64,000 bases of DNA from Myxococcota bacterium (GTDB lineage: Bacteria > Myxococcota_A > UBA9160 > UBA4427). The stretch spans positions 1 to 64,000 of the forward strand of contig JASMLK010000045.1 in NCBI GenBank assembly GCA_030748735.1, in the 5' to 3' direction. Shown in pieces: positions 32,969 to 38,880 of this stretch; the stretch's first letter is position 1, and each line of letters opens with the position of its first letter. The position numbers and the translations under genes are program-made. Under the pieces are notes generated by a model, which saw nothing but the letters and a program-made list of their open reading frames with translations, was not told the DNA's origin and made no database searches.

Positions 32969-33832
32969 ATGGCCCACATCATCGCGGTTGTTGCGTTCCT
33001 CGTGTTTCTTGCGAGCGGAGGCATTGCAGGTGCCGGGGCGCTCGATGCGTCCCACAGTTTTCTCGAGCTGAAGGTCGGAACGGTTCCACCGCTTCGGACC
33101 GGAGCGCAGACCAGTCAGGTGCAACTCACCGGTGGCGCTTCGCAGATCATCGAAGATCCGCTGGTCTTCGAGATCGATGACTACGCAATCGAGTCCGCGG
33201 CCTTCACGGGGATGCCGTTTCTCCCCGGCTTCAGGATCGACCTCGGGGCTGGAGCGGCGACGTACACGGCGGGCGCTTCCTATGCGAATCCGTTCGGTGC
33301 TGGCACTGTTACGGGTTTCGGGGGCACGGCGCCGTTCACCGGCGCAGCGGTCGTCGAGATCGCGGGCTACGCCGTGCCGATACACGCGGATTCGCTCGGC
33401 GTCGGGGGGACGGAGCTCGCGGTCGTCCTCAACAACCAGATCTTCGTGACGGGCGCTCCGTTCAACACCGGCGCGGTCAACATCACCGGGATCACGTCGC
33501 CTGTGCTCTTCGCGCCTTCACTGGGTGTGACGGGTGTCGCCTTCACCCTGAACCTCACGACGGCGCAGTTGATGACCGCGATACCGCTGACCGATGGCGG
33601 GAACCCCGTTCAAGTCCACACCGTGACCGTGCAGGGCTCGAACTCGCTCACCAGCGTCGCTCAGACGGGCGAGATCAAGATGATCTCACCGATTCGCATT
33701 CGAACCGATTCCGAAAGCAAGCCAGCCGCGCTGACCAAAACGTTCCGGTTCGTTCCCGAGCCCGTCGCCGCTCTGCAACTTCTCACCTGCGCCGCGGGCC
33801 TGGCACTCCTCGCCCACGCACGCCTGCGCTGA
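32969..33832 (+). CDS. Secreted protein with PEP-CTERM-like C-terminal sorting signal
   Basis: A 287-residue protein with an N-terminal signal peptide (HIIAVVAFLVFLASGGIAGAGA) and a threonine-, glycine- and alanine-rich body of short strands without recognised catalytic motifs. The last 26 residues begin with VPEP (262-265), continue as a single hydrophobic helix and end in HARLR. This is the tripartite PEP-CTERM pattern processed by exosortases in Gram-negative bacteria that make extracellular polysaccharide. No exosortase gene is in this window. The next gene, an RHS-repeat lipoprotein, starts 20 bases downstream with an AAGGGGACC site, so they are probably co-transcribed. A role in the cell surface or matrix is inferred. 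Confidence 0.78.
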   Translation: MAHIIAVVAFLVFLASGGIAGAGALDASHSFLELKVGTVPPLRTGAQTSQVQLTGGASQIIEDPLVFEIDDYAIESAAFTGMPFLPGFRIDLGAGAATYTAGASYANPFGAGTVTGFGGTAPFTGAAVVEIAGYAVPIHADSLGVGGTELAVVLNNQIFVTGAPFNTGAVNITGITSPVLFAPSLGVTGVAFTLNLTTAQLMTAIPLTDGGNPVQVHTVTVQGSNSLTSVAQTGEIKMISPIRIRTDSESKPAALTKTFRFVPEPVAALQLLTCAAGLALLAHARLR

Positions 33833-33852
33833 CCTCGCCAAGGGGACCCACC

Positions 33853-36800
33853 ATGCTTCGAACGCTCTCGATCCTTTTCACCTGCGCGGCCCTCGTCGGC
33901 TGCAGCGCCGAATCCCTGCCCATCGCCACCAACATCAGCGGAAACATGATCCCCCCACCCCGCTCGGGTGTGGCGTCGATGTATCGGGGGTTGATGGTTT
34001 CGGTGCCGGGTGGGGCGGTGAACGCATCTGGAGGCAATCTTCACATCACGCGAAGCGACATGTCGGTCGGGACGCGAGTGCATGAGTGGGGTGTCGGCGC
34101 GGTGTGGAACTCCGCAGCGGGAGCGTGGCAATGGAACTTCGACATGAGCCTCGTTGCTCCACGTCCAGGACAACCGCCGATCTTCATCGATGCCACGGGT
34201 TATGCCGCCTTTCTGAAGGGAGTCGAGTTCGGCGAGGAGATCCCCGGAACTCGATGGTTCTATCACGATGCGGACACGATTCGGTCGGCTGGTGGATTGA
34301 TGTACCACTTCGACGCATCGGGTTGGCTCGCTTCGGTGAACTGGGCGAGTCAGCCATACCCCGCCATTCATTTCCAACGCTCGGTCGTCGGCGGTCTGTC
34401 TCGGGTTACCCGGATCGACCAATGTGTCGTTGCCGGCAGTTGCACCGCACTGTACACGATCGATCTCGATGCACGGGGCCGGGTGGACACCGTGACCGAC
34501 CTCGCGGGGAGACAGTCGTCCTATCAATACGAAGGAACCAGCGAGCGCCCTAGCGTAGTTCGAGATCCTCTGGAGCTGGCGAAGGGATGGCCCGGTACTC
34601 GCTACGAGTACGACGTGCATGGTCGGCTTGCTTCCTCGACGAACTCCCACGATGAGCGGATCGAGTACGTCTATTTCGGCAGCTCTGCTCGCACGGCCGC
34701 TGTCGCCCAGATCGGCGAGGGTGATCCGGTCTGGCGCTTCGACTATTCGGGAATGAAGGCGGATCGCATCCATGCCAGTACGACGATCACCAGTCCGCTC
34801 GGGACGCCCTCGAGGTTCGTGTTCGACTACGGGTTGAGGATCAAGAGCTTTACGAATGCCGACGGCGAGAAGTGGCACTGGTCCTGGAGCGATACCGACC
34901 TCAAGGGCGTGACCGACCCAGCGGGTGTGTACCGGGGGATCTCATGGTCCCAGAATCGGACGGTGTTGTCGCAGACCCATGCGACCGGGAACACGGTGGT
35001 GACAACCTTCGCACCATTCCCAGCCGAGAATCGAAGCAACCCGTTCGATCGCCCCATACTGCAGATCACTGACGACCTTGGCCTCATCGAGGCTCGAATG
35101 TACTCACCGGCGGGGAAGCTCGAGTCGACATCGAACGGGGAGGGCGAGTCCTGGACATATGCATTCGCTGGGAATGGGGATCTAACCGCGACGAATCCAG
35201 CAGGAGTCGTCACGGTGTACACCGACCGCGGTGATCACGGAGGGTATGCAACGGTGGCCCGGGGGACGGAGGTCGTTGCACAGACCCACGATCTCATCGG
35301 AAACCTGCTCGCCGTCGATGGTCTTCTGGAAGAAGACGTATCCCTTCACGCGCTATCGATCGGAAAGGGGGGCATGGTTGGGCGCACGTACGATGCGAAC
35401 CGAAACGTCGCTTCGATTCTGCTCGACGACAGCGGAAGGGCGACGGTGAGCGCACTGCAGGTTGAATGGCGGGCCGACGGTCAACAGTCGAAGATCACCA
35501 GGCCGTATGGTGGAGATACCGAGTTTCGGTACGACGATCTCGGACGCCTTGTCGAGGAACGAACCCGTGTAGATGGTTCGTGGGTGAGCACGAATCTCGA
35601 ATTCGACCTGGAGGGTCGAGTCACCGCTCAGCTGCGCCCGAACGGAATGGCCACGCGTTGGACCTATCGAGACTCGGGCGACGTTGCGTCGATCCGACAC
35701 GAACGCGACTGGAGTGACCCGCAGGAGTTCGACGCTGAAGTCCAGTTCGAGTATCTCGACGCGCGCCGAGTGGCGATTCGAGATCAGGTGCACGGTATGG
35801 TGCCAGAGCAGTTCGTCTACGACGGAGGTGGGCGTGTCAGCGAGATCCGATACCCCGACGGCGAGAAGGTCGATCATGCTTACGACATGCGAAATCGCCG
35901 TGTGCTGAGCACATACTCACGAGCCGATTCGACACAGCTCGTTGCCCTCGCGTACGAGCACGATCTCGCGAATCGAACGACCGCGATCGAAAGGGACGGA
36001 GCGGAGACCCTGGGCGTCGTCTTCCTGGATGGTCGCGTCGATTCCTTCAGCCTTGGGAACGGTGTCGACGTTTCGCGCAGCTATGACCCTGTCACTGGGG
36101 CGTTTTCGGGTTTCGTGGCGACGAACGCGGCCACGCAGCCGGTCGCTCAGATGAACGTCGGGGTGACCCTCTGCAGCGTTCAACTGCCCGCCGGCCGATG
36201 TGTGACCGAGCAGACGGATACCTACCATGGCCTGGCTTCGACATCGTACTCGGCCTACCAGACCGACGAGCTCGGCAGTGAGAGGTTGCTCGCCGATTCA
36301 GTCGGTATGACGAACCCGATCGACGGATCGTATGACTACGACGAACTCAGCAACCTCGAGCAATCGCCCGCCGGTAGCTTCCTCTACAACACCGAACGAA
36401 ACCGCTTGCTCGAGATTTCGAATGCTGGAGGAACCGTCGTCGACTACACCTACGACGACGCGGGGTTCGTGACTGACCGCAACGGTCAAGCCATCAGCTG
36501 GAGCGGCATGGGGCGCGTCTCGGCGCTTGGCTCCACGTCGTCGATGCAGTGGGATGGACTCGGTCGGAGGGTTTCGATCACCGAATCAGGTGGAACGACG
36601 CGTGCAAAGTACGGTGGTGTGGTCACCGAAGCTGTCACCGGTACGGCCCAGAAGATGGATCTCGGCTGGGTGATCCTCGATCTCGACACCGGAAGCAACG
36701 ACTACCGTCTGTTCGATTTCCGGGGAAACGCGAAGCTCGTTCTCGACGAAACGGGGGCAGTGACCGCTCACCAGCACTACGCGGGCTATGGCCGGGTAGC

Positions 36801-37482
36801 ACTCGATGGAATGGATCCGACCGACATGGGGTTCGCGGGGGGGACCCACATGGGCGATCTCGTGGCACTTGGCGCCCGAATCTACGATCCCATTGCGGCG
36901 AGGTTCTTGTCGCAAGACCCGATTCCCCAGATCGTGAACCAATACACCTACACGACGGGGAACCCCGTGAGATTCTGGGATCCGGGTGGCTTGAACGAGG
37001 TCGTCACGGGGAGGACGGTGACAACGACGGAACCGAGTACGGTCTTTCAGGCTGAAGGCGAGGCAGCTCTGCTCGGTTTCGGTATCAGGTTCAGTGCCTC
37101 GGTCGTGATTCATGGCAACCAGGAATCGATCCACTACGCCCCGGCCCCCCCCGCGAGCACGCTGCAGGGCGGCAATTCGAACGACGCGACTGCGGCCGCA
37201 ACGAAGAGTAAGTTGGTCAGTGGGTCGAGCGCGCCGGTGGGGGAGAGCGCAGCTTTCGGGTCGGAATCGGGTGGAAACGGTTCCGCGGGGAAGGGCCGGG
37301 ACGGCCCGAATCGTGCCAGGCAGCGAAAGCAGGAGCGAATGACCTCGAGTCCGTCCCACGACGTTCCCAACTTCCAGCCGGTCTGTGGAATCGGGTTCGA
37401 GATCGTTCCGGTCTTGCTGAGTCTGATCGCGGTGAGACGGCGCCGCGGCGATCGACATTCCGCTAGCGGGTCTCGAGCATAG
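33853..37482 (+). CDS. RHS/YD-repeat lipoprotein with C-terminal membrane tail
   Basis: A 1209-residue protein starting with a lipoprotein signal (LSILFTCAALVGCSAE; Cys17 in the lipobox). YD-type repeats run through most of it (TRYEYDVHGRLASSTNS, TEFRYDDLGRLVEERT, VDYTYDDAGFVTDRNG). The RHS core motif ARFLSQDPIPQIVNQYTYTTGNPVRFWDPGG lies near residues 1012-1042, and a variable tail of about 165 residues follows. The tail is serine/glycine/asparagine-rich and ends in PVCGIGFEIVPVLL, a hydrophobic run and RRRR, like a C-terminal sorting or anchoring signal rather than a toxin domain. No immunity-type gene follows. The 3' end overlaps the convergent esterase gene by 20 bases. Probably a surface-displayed shell protein. 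Confidence 0.88.
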   Translation: MLRTLSILFTCAALVGCSAESLPIATNISGNMIPPPRSGVASMYRGLMVSVPGGAVNASGGNLHITRSDMSVGTRVHEWGVGAVWNSAAGAWQWNFDMSLVAPRPGQPPIFIDATGYAAFLKGVEFGEEIPGTRWFYHDADTIRSAGGLMYHFDASGWLASVNWASQPYPAIHFQRSVVGGLSRVTRIDQCVVAGSCTALYTIDLDARGRVDTVTDLAGRQSSYQYEGTSERPSVVRDPLELAKGWPGTRYEYDVHGRLASSTNSHDERIEYVYFGSSARTAAVAQIGEGDPVWRFDYSGMKADRIHASTTITSPLGTPSRFVFDYGLRIKSFTNADGEKWHWSWSDTDLKGVTDPAGVYRGISWSQNRTVLSQTHATGNTVVTTFAPFPAENRSNPFDRPILQITDDLGLIEARMYSPAGKLESTSNGEGESWTYAFAGNGDLTATNPAGVVTVYTDRGDHGGYATVARGTEVVAQTHDLIGNLLAVDGLLEEDVSLHALSIGKGGMVGRTYDANRNVASILLDDSGRATVSALQVEWRADGQQSKITRPYGGDTEFRYDDLGRLVEERTRVDGSWVSTNLEFDLEGRVTAQLRPNGMATRWTYRDSGDVASIRHERDWSDPQEFDAEVQFEYLDARRVAIRDQVHGMVPEQFVYDGGGRVSEIRYPDGEKVDHAYDMRNRRVLSTYSRADSTQLVALAYEHDLANRTTAIERDGAETLGVVFLDGRVDSFSLGNGVDVSRSYDPVTGAFSGFVATNAATQPVAQMNVGVTLCSVQLPAGRCVTEQTDTYHGLASTSYSAYQTDELGSERLLADSVGMTNPIDGSYDYDELSNLEQSPAGSFLYNTERNRLLEISNAGGTVVDYTYDDAGFVTDRNGQAISWSGMGRVSALGSTSSMQWDGLGRRVSITESGGTTRAKYGGVVTEAVTGTAQKMDLGWVILDLDTGSNDYRLFDFRGNAKLVLDETGAVTAHQHYAGYGRVALDGMDPTDMGFAGGTHMGDLVALGARIYDPIAARFLSQDPIPQIVNQYTYTTGNPVRFWDPGGLNEVVTGRTVTTTEPSTVFQAEGEAALLGFGIRFSASVVIHGNQESIHYAPAPPASTLQGGNSNDATAAATKSKLVSGSSAPVGESAAFGSESGGNGSAGKGRDGPNRARQRKQERMTSSPSHDVPNFQPVCGIGFEIVPVLLSLIAVRRRRGDRHSASGSRA

Positions 37483-38086
37483 ACTGCAGCTGCCTCCAAA
37501 CCCTCTCCGCGATCAACTCGTGCCCTTTCGCCGTCGGGTGGATGCCATCCGGTTGATTGAGGTCGGGTCTGGCGGCGACGTCTTCCAGCAGGAACGGGAT
37601 CAGCCCCGCTTCGTATTCGCTGGCGAGCTTTGGGTACGCGGATTCGAAGGCCTTCATGTAGTCGCGGCCGAGGTTGGGGACGGCGCGCATGCCGGCGATG
37701 AGGAGGCGGGTATCGGGGTACTTGCTGCGCGTTCGGTCGATGATCGTGCGCAGGTTGCTTTGCATCGTGGCGGGGTCGAGGCCGCGGAGCATGTCGTTGG
37801 CGCCGAGTTCGAGTACGAGGACGGAGACCCGGGAACGCAGGAGCCAACCGATGCGGCGTAGACCGCCCGCGGAGGTGTCGCCGCTCACGCCTGCATTCAC
37901 CACGCGATAGCTGAGGCCGGCATCATCGATCTTGCGCTGGATCAGTGCCGGGAAGGCCTGTTCCGAGGGGAGCCCATAGCCGGCGGTGAGACTCGTGCCC
38001 AGGAACAGCACGACGGGGCGGCTGTCGGCCCATGCTGGTCCGACCGAAACCAGGGTGAACCACACGAGAGTCAGGGAGGCGCACAC
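37463..38086 (-). CDS. tesA: TesA-like multifunctional GDSL esterase / thioesterase
   Basis: An SGNH hydrolase with all four blocks: block I FLGTSLTAGYGL with the catalytic Ser (here GTSLT), block II VVNAGVSGDTSAGGLRRI, block III LELGANDMLRG with Asn, and block V NQPDGIHPTAKGHELIA with Asp and His. It acts in the periplasm on acyl-CoA, acyl esters or lysophospholipids. A signal peptide, CASLTLVWFTLVSVGPAWA, follows a GTG that I take as start; the frame is open to an ATG at 38173, but that would add a long arginine-rich extension and overlap the divergent ABC gene. The gene order, divergent from an ABC ATPase/permease pair, is that of E. coli tesA-ybbA-ybbP. Confidence 0.87.
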   Translation of the reverse strand: MCASLTLVWFTLVSVGPAWADSRPVVLFLGTSLTAGYGLPSEQAFPALIQRKIDDAGLSYRVVNAGVSGDTSAGGLRRIGWLLRSRVSVLVLELGANDMLRGLDPATMQSNLRTIIDRTRSKYPDTRLLIAGMRAVPNLGRDYMKAFESAYPKLASEYEAGLIPFLLEDVAARPDLNQPDGIHPTAKGHELIAERVWRQLQSMLETR

Positions 38087-38139
38087 GAATCGGGCAGTCC
38101 GCGCCGACCCGCACGATGCGGGTGCGCGACCCAGTGAGT

Positions 38140-38880
38140 ATGCTCGGCGCCATCGTCGTGTCGGAAGTTGCATCGCCCATCATCGTCGCGCGGAACCTTT
38201 GCCAACGCTACCTGCGTGCGGGCGGTGGCGAGCCGTTGACGGTGCTCGAAGGGGTGGGTCTCGAAGTCGTCGCCGGCGAACGCATCGCGGTGCTCGGCCC
38301 CTCGGGCAGCGGGAAGACCACCTTGCTCGGCCTGCTCGCGGGCCTCGACCTCGCGACCGAAGGCACGGTCGAACTCGTCGGCCACGTCCTGAACGACCTC
38401 GACGAAGATGCGCGTGCTGCACTTCGGGCCGACAAGATCGGCTTCGTGTTTCAGAGCTTTCAACTCGTCCCGACGTTGACCGCGCTCGAGAACGTGCTCG
38501 TTCCTCTCGAACTTCTCCCCGCTTCACGTGCAGTCCCACGCGCCCGGGCCGAGGAAGCGGCGCGCGCGCTCCTCGACCGCGTCGGCCTGGCCGACCGGCT
38601 CGATCACTATCCCACGCAGCTCTCGGGCGGTGAACAACAACGGGTTGGCATCGCGCGCGCGTTCGCGAACGAACCCGTGGTGCTCTTCGCCGACGAACCC
38701 ACCGGCAACCTCGACGCCGAAACGGGCGGTGGCATCGTCGACCTGCTGCTCGACATCAATCGCGAGCGCGGCACCACCCTCGCGATCGTCACCCACGACG
38801 TCGATCTCGCCCGCAAGGCGAACCGCATCGTGACCCTCGCCGGCGGACGCTTGCAGAAGATCGAAACGGTGACCTCGTGA
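38140..38880 (+). CDS. ABC transporter ATP-binding protein (LolD/YbbA type)
   Basis: A roughly 246-residue ATPase with Walker A GPSGSGKTT, Q-loop FVFQSFQLVP, signature LSGGEQQRVGIARAFA, Walker B VVLFADEPTGNLD and the H-loop THD. The DEPTGNLD and SFQLVPTLTALENV blocks are typical of the MacB/LolD/YbbA group that powers FtsX-type permeases acting on envelope lipids or lipoproteins without moving substrate through the membrane. It overlaps the permease gene by four bases. An in-frame ATG also exists at 38116, but this shorter start leaves room for promoters toward both sides. The adjacent divergent TesA-like gene supports a YbbA-type identity. Confidence 0.9.
   Translation: MLGAIVVSEVASPIIVARNLCQRYLRAGGGEPLTVLEGVGLEVVAGERIAVLGPSGSGKTTLLGLLAGLDLATEGTVELVGHVLNDLDEDARAALRADKIGFVFQSFQLVPTLTALENVLVPLELLPASRAVPRARAEEAARALLDRVGLADRLDHYPTQLSGGEQQRVGIARAFANEPVVLFADEPTGNLDAETGGGIVDLLLDINRERGTTLAIVTHDVDLARKANRIVTLAGGRLQKIETVTS

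Follow-up and report, generated by a model that had tools for sequence, protein, structure and literature searches.

Does a lipoprotein built on an RHS shell also end in a genuine sorting signal, and to which class would such a tail belong? The locus that raises this question lies in a 64,000-nucleotide stretch of DNA from a Myxococcota bacterium (hereafter the window), in which two genes occupy positions 32969–37482 exactly as the original prediction had placed them. Gene 1 (32969..33832, +) encodes a 287-aa secreted protein of the PEP-CTERM family, as indicated by a 68% identical orthologue (L087) and a 49% identical paralogue (L075). Gene 2 (33853..37482, +), which follows on the same strand after a gap of 20 nt, encodes a 1209-aa RHS/YD-repeat lipoprotein with a C-terminal Cys tail, as judged by its sequence, domain matches and homologues. 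At its 3′ end the RHS gene overlaps the 3′ end of a convergent gene for a TesA-like hydrolase (37463–38173, minus strand) by 20 bp (37463–37482), and an ABC transporter ATPase and permease pair lies beyond the hydrolase gene in the window.

The N-terminus of the gene 2 protein, MLRTLSILFTCAALVGC17, comprises by inspection a signal peptide and the lipobox LVGC17 (33853..33903, +), a lipobox being taken as a signal peptide with [LVI][ASTVI][GAS]C. RHS homologues are present in 31 of 61 related genomes, and a signal peptide followed by Cys is conserved at their N-terminus across the order, in support of the lipobox proposed at Cys17. Residues 36–1047 (33958..36993, +) form the YD-repeat/RHS shell, which is defined by Pfam and NCBIfam matches and by a beta-rich AlphaFold model. 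Six RHS/YD repeat matches were found in the protein, with scores of 88.5 bits for RHS_repeat (PF05593; cut-off 22) and 54.3 bits for YD_repeat_2x, and the RHS core (TIGR03696) covers residues 976–1047 at 50.1 bits (cut-off 32.5), bearing out the YD repeats and RHS core that had been read from the sequence. In the AlphaFold model (seven sequences; mean pLDDT 61) the shell is beta-rich with moderate confidence, and Foldseek searches with it retrieved T6SS Rhs effectors and teneurins with E down to 6e-44 and a TM-score of 0.54 for Tse5. The shell ends in PVRFWDPGGL (36964..36993, +), an exact instance of the Rhs cleavage-site motif PxxxxDPxGL, and Asp1022 and Asp1043 are invariant in the columns of alignment A8. 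This motif is the Rhs boundary at which aspartyl autocleavage occurs (PMC8636562).

In the toxin's place lies a variable extension of about 160 aa (36994..37383, +) between the RHS shell and the Cys tail, which is 16–35% identical to the corresponding region of genus mates, compared with 55–65% for the core. The last ~190 residues of the model are unstructured, and the extension has a pLDDT of about 20–30 with no folded domain. No toxin family or domain was found in the gene 2 protein with Pfam and NCBIfam, which agrees with the earlier observation that no toxin follows the RHS core. The window protein thus resembles T6SS Rhs effectors (RhsA, Tse5, Tse15) and teneurins in its YD-repeat shell and PxxxxDPxGL site, but it differs from them in having no PAAR, VgrG or toxin domain and in carrying a lipobox and a putative C-terminal sorting tail.

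The C-terminus reads VC1178GIGFEIVPVLLSLIAVRRRRGDRHSASGSRA. Its signature C1178-G-I-G-F-E (37384..37401, +) matches tail profile A6 with E = 1.1e-11 and is followed by the hydrophobic stretch IVPVLLSLIAV and RRRR (37402..37446, +). We refer to tails of this kind, with C-G-[IL]-G-x-E, a short hydrophobic stretch and an Arg cluster, as CGxGxE. The hydrophobic stretch between the Glu and RRRR is only 11 residues long; other sorting tails likewise have a short hydrophobic stretch. Within the genus, CG[IL]G[FY]EI is kept although the preceding linker has diverged to 16–35% identity. The Cys-containing tail ending in RRRR is therefore present as first described, and both ends of the protein recur across the RHS homologues of the order.

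The class of the tail is another matter, because its description as MYXO-CTERM- or GlyGly-CTERM-like was not upheld by a match to either class above cut-off. No NCBIfam or Pfam model recognised the window tail above cut-off, and none of the CGxGxE tails tested exceeded any NCBIfam cut-off or matched anything in Pfam. The nearest NCBIfam scores were 15.0 of 15.85 bits for GC_trans_RRR and 20.6 of 24 bits for Heimdall-CTERM (in a single relative, the window tail reaching 13.9 bits). MYXO-CTERM, GC_trans_RRR and GlyGly-CTERM were thus rejected as names for the tail, none of them matching above cut-off and GlyGly-CTERM (NCBIfam) giving no match to it at E ≤ 10. In layout, the window tail is of the MYXO-CTERM type, with C1178, IVPVLLSLIAV and RRRR in order. 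It shares with MYXO-CTERM (TIGR03901/TIGR03382; MrtX/MrtC/MrtP) an invariant Cys, a hydrophobic helix, an Arg cluster and an occurrence on secreted proteins, and the CGxGxE class likewise has many clients per genome in related bacteria (several records are labelled Myxococcota or Deltaproteobacteria). However, CGxGxE differs in its C-G-[IL]-G-x-E signature, in tested tails that fall below TIGR03901 and TIGR03382, and in a myxosortase search that stayed below cut-off. Synerg-CTERM and Heimdall-CTERM are also short and tripartite, but the similarity is weak and all tested CGxGxE tails score below their cut-offs.

The CGxGxE tail is not a peculiarity of RHS proteins. Profile A5, made from six RHS homologues ending in CG[IL]..GxE, was run over 61 genomes, which are incomplete MAGs whose genes were called with a simple GC-frame script, and revealed many further proteins with such a tail. 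The carriers are unrelated in their domains and include subtilases, M12B and M1 peptidases, an alpha/beta hydrolase and LVIVD-repeat, SdrD-B and adhesin-like proteins. In nearly all of the tailed proteins that were inspected, 0–37 aa separate the tail from the stop codon, and a crude test detected a Sec-like signal peptide in 14 or more of 19 full frames. Single genomes held up to 25 matches at E ≤ 1 and up to 14 at E ≤ 1e-4, E-values of such 28–30-residue profiles being approximate. When profile A6 (26 sequences) was run over 113 genomes of the phylum, matches at E ≤ 1e-4 were confined to the window's order, with 14 of its 22 genomes positive and 0 of the 91 others. CGxGxE is thus widespread, C-terminal and, within this phylum sample, restricted to the window's order. 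Given its C-terminal position on unrelated secreted proteins, it behaves as a C-terminal sorting signal.

The match of the RHS protein itself exceeds chance, since the window protein reaches 40 bits with the tail profile, whereas in control loci (1.7 Mb) scores above 8 bits were seen only in the same protein of three relatives and in L325, and reversed and shuffled ORFs gave zero matches. In L220 and L325 the CGxGxE matches lie far from the stop codon, that of L220 beside a run of N, and these genes are possibly fused or frameshifted. The expectation that other proteins would carry such tails was borne out in numbers across the order but not in the window's own genome, where the RHS protein was the sole CGxGxE match in profile searches; a DNA pattern search of that genome gave 15 motif matches, and only in the RHS gene was the motif followed by a helix and an Arg cluster. 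The genus mate G002 encodes at least one further CGxGxE protein (L394).

The protein encoded upstream points to a different sorting pathway. The gene 1 product ends in FRFVPEP-VAALQLLTCAAGLALLAHARLR, a degenerate PEP-CTERM tail of VPEP, hydrophobic helix and short basic end (HARLR; 33752..33829, +), which gave no match to the PEP-CTERM model TIGR02595 at E ≤ 10. Its paralogue in the same genome, L075, is 49% identical over the whole length and ends in FLPEPGTALLLLTGAAGLAVVGRARMRK, a canonical PEP-CTERM above the TIGR02595 cut-off. Gene 1 therefore encodes a secreted protein with VPEP, helix and basic end and a canonical PEP-CTERM homologue; its description as PEP-CTERM-like is supported by these features and by the paralogue, but not by TIGR02595. 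The genome contains 22 PEP-CTERM matches above cut-off and six exosortase-family genes, three above the TIGR02602 cut-off and three weaker, with one of the latter passing XrtT NF033770, so that a plausible enzyme for the first protein, as the original prediction had sought, is at hand. The XrtT exosortase (416 bits) is encoded at G000:C157:46436-47074 (L006), and some of the other five exosortase-family genes have an EpsI-like C-terminal part. Compared with known PEP-CTERM/exosortase systems, the gene 1 protein has the VPEP, the helix and the basic end, and exosortases are present in the genome, but its tail scores below TIGR02595 and the RHS tail is not a PEP-CTERM.

The proposed coupling of a PEP-CTERM-like gene to the RHS gene is real yet patchy, because it is kept in one genus mate and missing in another. 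In G002 the gene 1 orthologue (L087, 68% identical) lies directly upstream of the RHS gene with the 20-nt gap preserved, whereas the pairing is absent from G003; in G035, from another family, an RHS gene with a CGLTGIE tail is immediately preceded by a gene whose product ends in VPEP and a helix, although its similarity to gene 1 is weak. The gene 1 product is probably an independent surface protein and exosortase client, which some species of the genus encode together with the RHS protein. A PEP-CTERM protein (TPEPGTLALVGLGVLALGLRGAAGRAR; L094:13416-14150, −) is also encoded near the RHS gene of a distant relative, and homology between it and the window's PEP-CTERM protein was not detectable.

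We searched for an enzyme that could process the CGxGxE tail. The myxosortase core model NF040914 exceeded its cut-off in 0 of 61 genomes, the best score in the window's genome being 30.5 bits against a cut-off of 100, and the myxosortase that might have been expected there was accordingly not found. CPBP clades were rejected as the source of the enzyme, as none separated 12 tail-bearing from 11 tail-free genomes in a test on 92 proteins from these 23 genomes that used crude clustering (single linkage on core segments). In two relatives (G006 and G014), rhomboid-type protease genes overlap or abut the RHS gene (L093:11798-13762, +; L096:2892-4844, −).

Most of the other RHS homologues, which belong to sister lineages, end in a second kind of Cys tail, in which C[SA]P and 10–15 residues are followed by a helix with PxQ and by Arg residues. 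Two neighbours, A1 and A2, recur in the 10-kb surroundings of these C[SA]P-tailed RHS genes. A1 is a CPBP/Rce1-like protease (PF02517, 60–68 bits) that falls below all named Mrt models, A1-type CPBP proteins scoring 27–39 bits against MrtJ (cut-off 75). A2 is a polytopic membrane protein of ~330 aa with invariant GYGHL, H..EN and several His residues, found by the neighbourhood search at, for example, L107:6641-7678 (+), L114:11372-12436 (−) and L095:13255-14238 (+). It has no match in Pfam or NCBIfam, and an attempt to name it by its predicted fold (pLDDT 86.6, pTM 0.84) failed, with no PDB match at E ≤ 0.001 and no sequence match either.

Strong matches to A1 and to A2 occur in 15 of the 61 genomes each, 13 of them in common, and all of these genomes bear an RHS gene. 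A1 or A2 is present in 13 of 14 genomes with a C[SA]P-tailed RHS protein compared with 0 of 11 with other RHS ends (Fisher p 2.7e-6, uncorrected for phylogeny), a count that covers interpretable RHS C-termini, with G032 and G039 (both with A1) omitted as ambiguous and truncated genes left uncounted. A1 and/or A2 lies within a few genes of the RHS gene in about a dozen genomes. In named genomes A2 was located at 13 loci, for the most part under a Deltaproteobacteria or Myxococcota label; 10 of these loci have A1 beside A2, and 8 include an RHS gene with a C[SA]P tail. In a phylogeny of the shells, the C[SA]P tail accounts for about five changes and CGxGxE for three; well-supported branches force only two and one of these, respectively. 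The C[SA]P-tailed relatives resemble the two-gene JDVT-CTERM/MrtJ system in that a Cys-tailed protein is encoded beside a CPBP protease, but differ in the tail sequence, in a CPBP protein below the MrtJ cut-off and in a third, undescribed membrane protein (A2). The cassette was ruled out for the window's own genome, where A2 is absent and the sole A1 match is a generic CPBP protein (52.8 bits).

We consider it likely that the gene 2 product, a lipoprotein with an RHS shell, is displayed in the envelope or on the surface and that its tail is a genuine C-terminal sorting signal of an unmodelled Cys class, CGxGxE. The same tail could instead be a plain membrane anchor that is never processed, with the RHS lipoprotein held at both ends. 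A hydrophobic stretch followed by RRRR fits the positive-inside rule, the myxosortase and CPBP clade searches found no processing enzyme for CGxGxE, and no second such tail was found in the same genome. Such an anchor, however, needs no conserved C-G-x-G-x-E ahead of an 11-residue stretch, whereas the motif is invariant on unrelated proteins, and C[SA]P-tailed RHS shells co-occur with the A1/A2 pair; a plain anchor therefore appears unlikely.

Autocleavage at PVRFWDPGGL would suit a polymorphic RHS toxin that frees a small membrane-active effector from its C-terminus, as the PxxxxDPxGL motif is exact, both aspartates are conserved and the extension varies between relatives in a toxin-like manner. 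We regard such a toxin as very improbable, given that no toxin domain was found, that the extension is predicted to be unstructured, that the type of tail at the very end is conserved and recurs on proteases and hydrolases, and that the window has no small immunity-type gene downstream, the next gene being that of the convergent TesA-like hydrolase. There is as little room for a divergent PEP-CTERM-like signal processed by one of the genome's exosortases, even in a genome rich in PEP-CTERM proteins and with six exosortase-family genes, some of them without a named class: CGxGxE has an invariant Cys in place of the proline-based exosortase signature, the Cys of known Cys-type signals goes with CPBP proteases (PMC11980579), and a single such tail was found in this genome, compared with 22 PEP-CTERM matches. 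We judge this reading highly improbable.

If CGxGxE is a sorting signal, the RHS lipoprotein would be exported by Sec, and Cys17 would be lipidated and the signal peptide cleaved by the ordinary lipoprotein pathway (Lgt/LspA). The tail would then be arrested in the inner membrane and cleaved beside Cys1178 by a putative membrane protease, possibly after lipidation of Cys1178 as proposed for MYXO-CTERM, and the protein would finally reach the outer surface, where the RHS shell would be the portion on display. The MYXO-CTERM route comprises the corresponding steps of export, tail arrest, Cys modification, cleavage and surface display (PMC11980579). Because the lipobox suggests lipidation of Cys17, the RHS protein may be anchored at its two ends, provided that the shell is not parted from the tail by autocleavage at DPGGL; the conserved PxxxxDPxGL site could indeed allow autocleavage before the tail, leaving the tail attached to the extension only. 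A lipobox and a C-terminal sorting tail on one protein are redundant, which counts against the sorting-signal reading. Of the unusual display design that had been proposed, with a lipidated N-terminus and a Cys tail on one RHS shell, both signals are present in the sequence; no second such tail was found in the genome.

The proteins that a bacterium exposes on its surface can be predicted from their sorting tails. The CGxGxE class is found on proteases, hydrolases and adhesin-like proteins and is missing from the curated libraries searched, so much of the order's surface proteome is unannotated. More tentatively, and with less confidence than we would need to favour it, the order may use at least two undescribed Cys-type sorting systems: CGxGxE, whose clients number dozens in some genomes, and C[SA]P...PxQ...RRR, served by A1 and A2, in which A2 would modify, perhaps lipidate, the tail Cys before cleavage. 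The Cys-modifying step of the MYXO-CTERM system is without an assigned enzyme in the myxosortase work. If the two-system proposal is true, A2 would be the enzyme for that step, and the two-gene cassette beside C[SA]P-tailed RHS genes supplies a specific candidate for the enzyme that modifies the Cys in Cys-type sorting systems.
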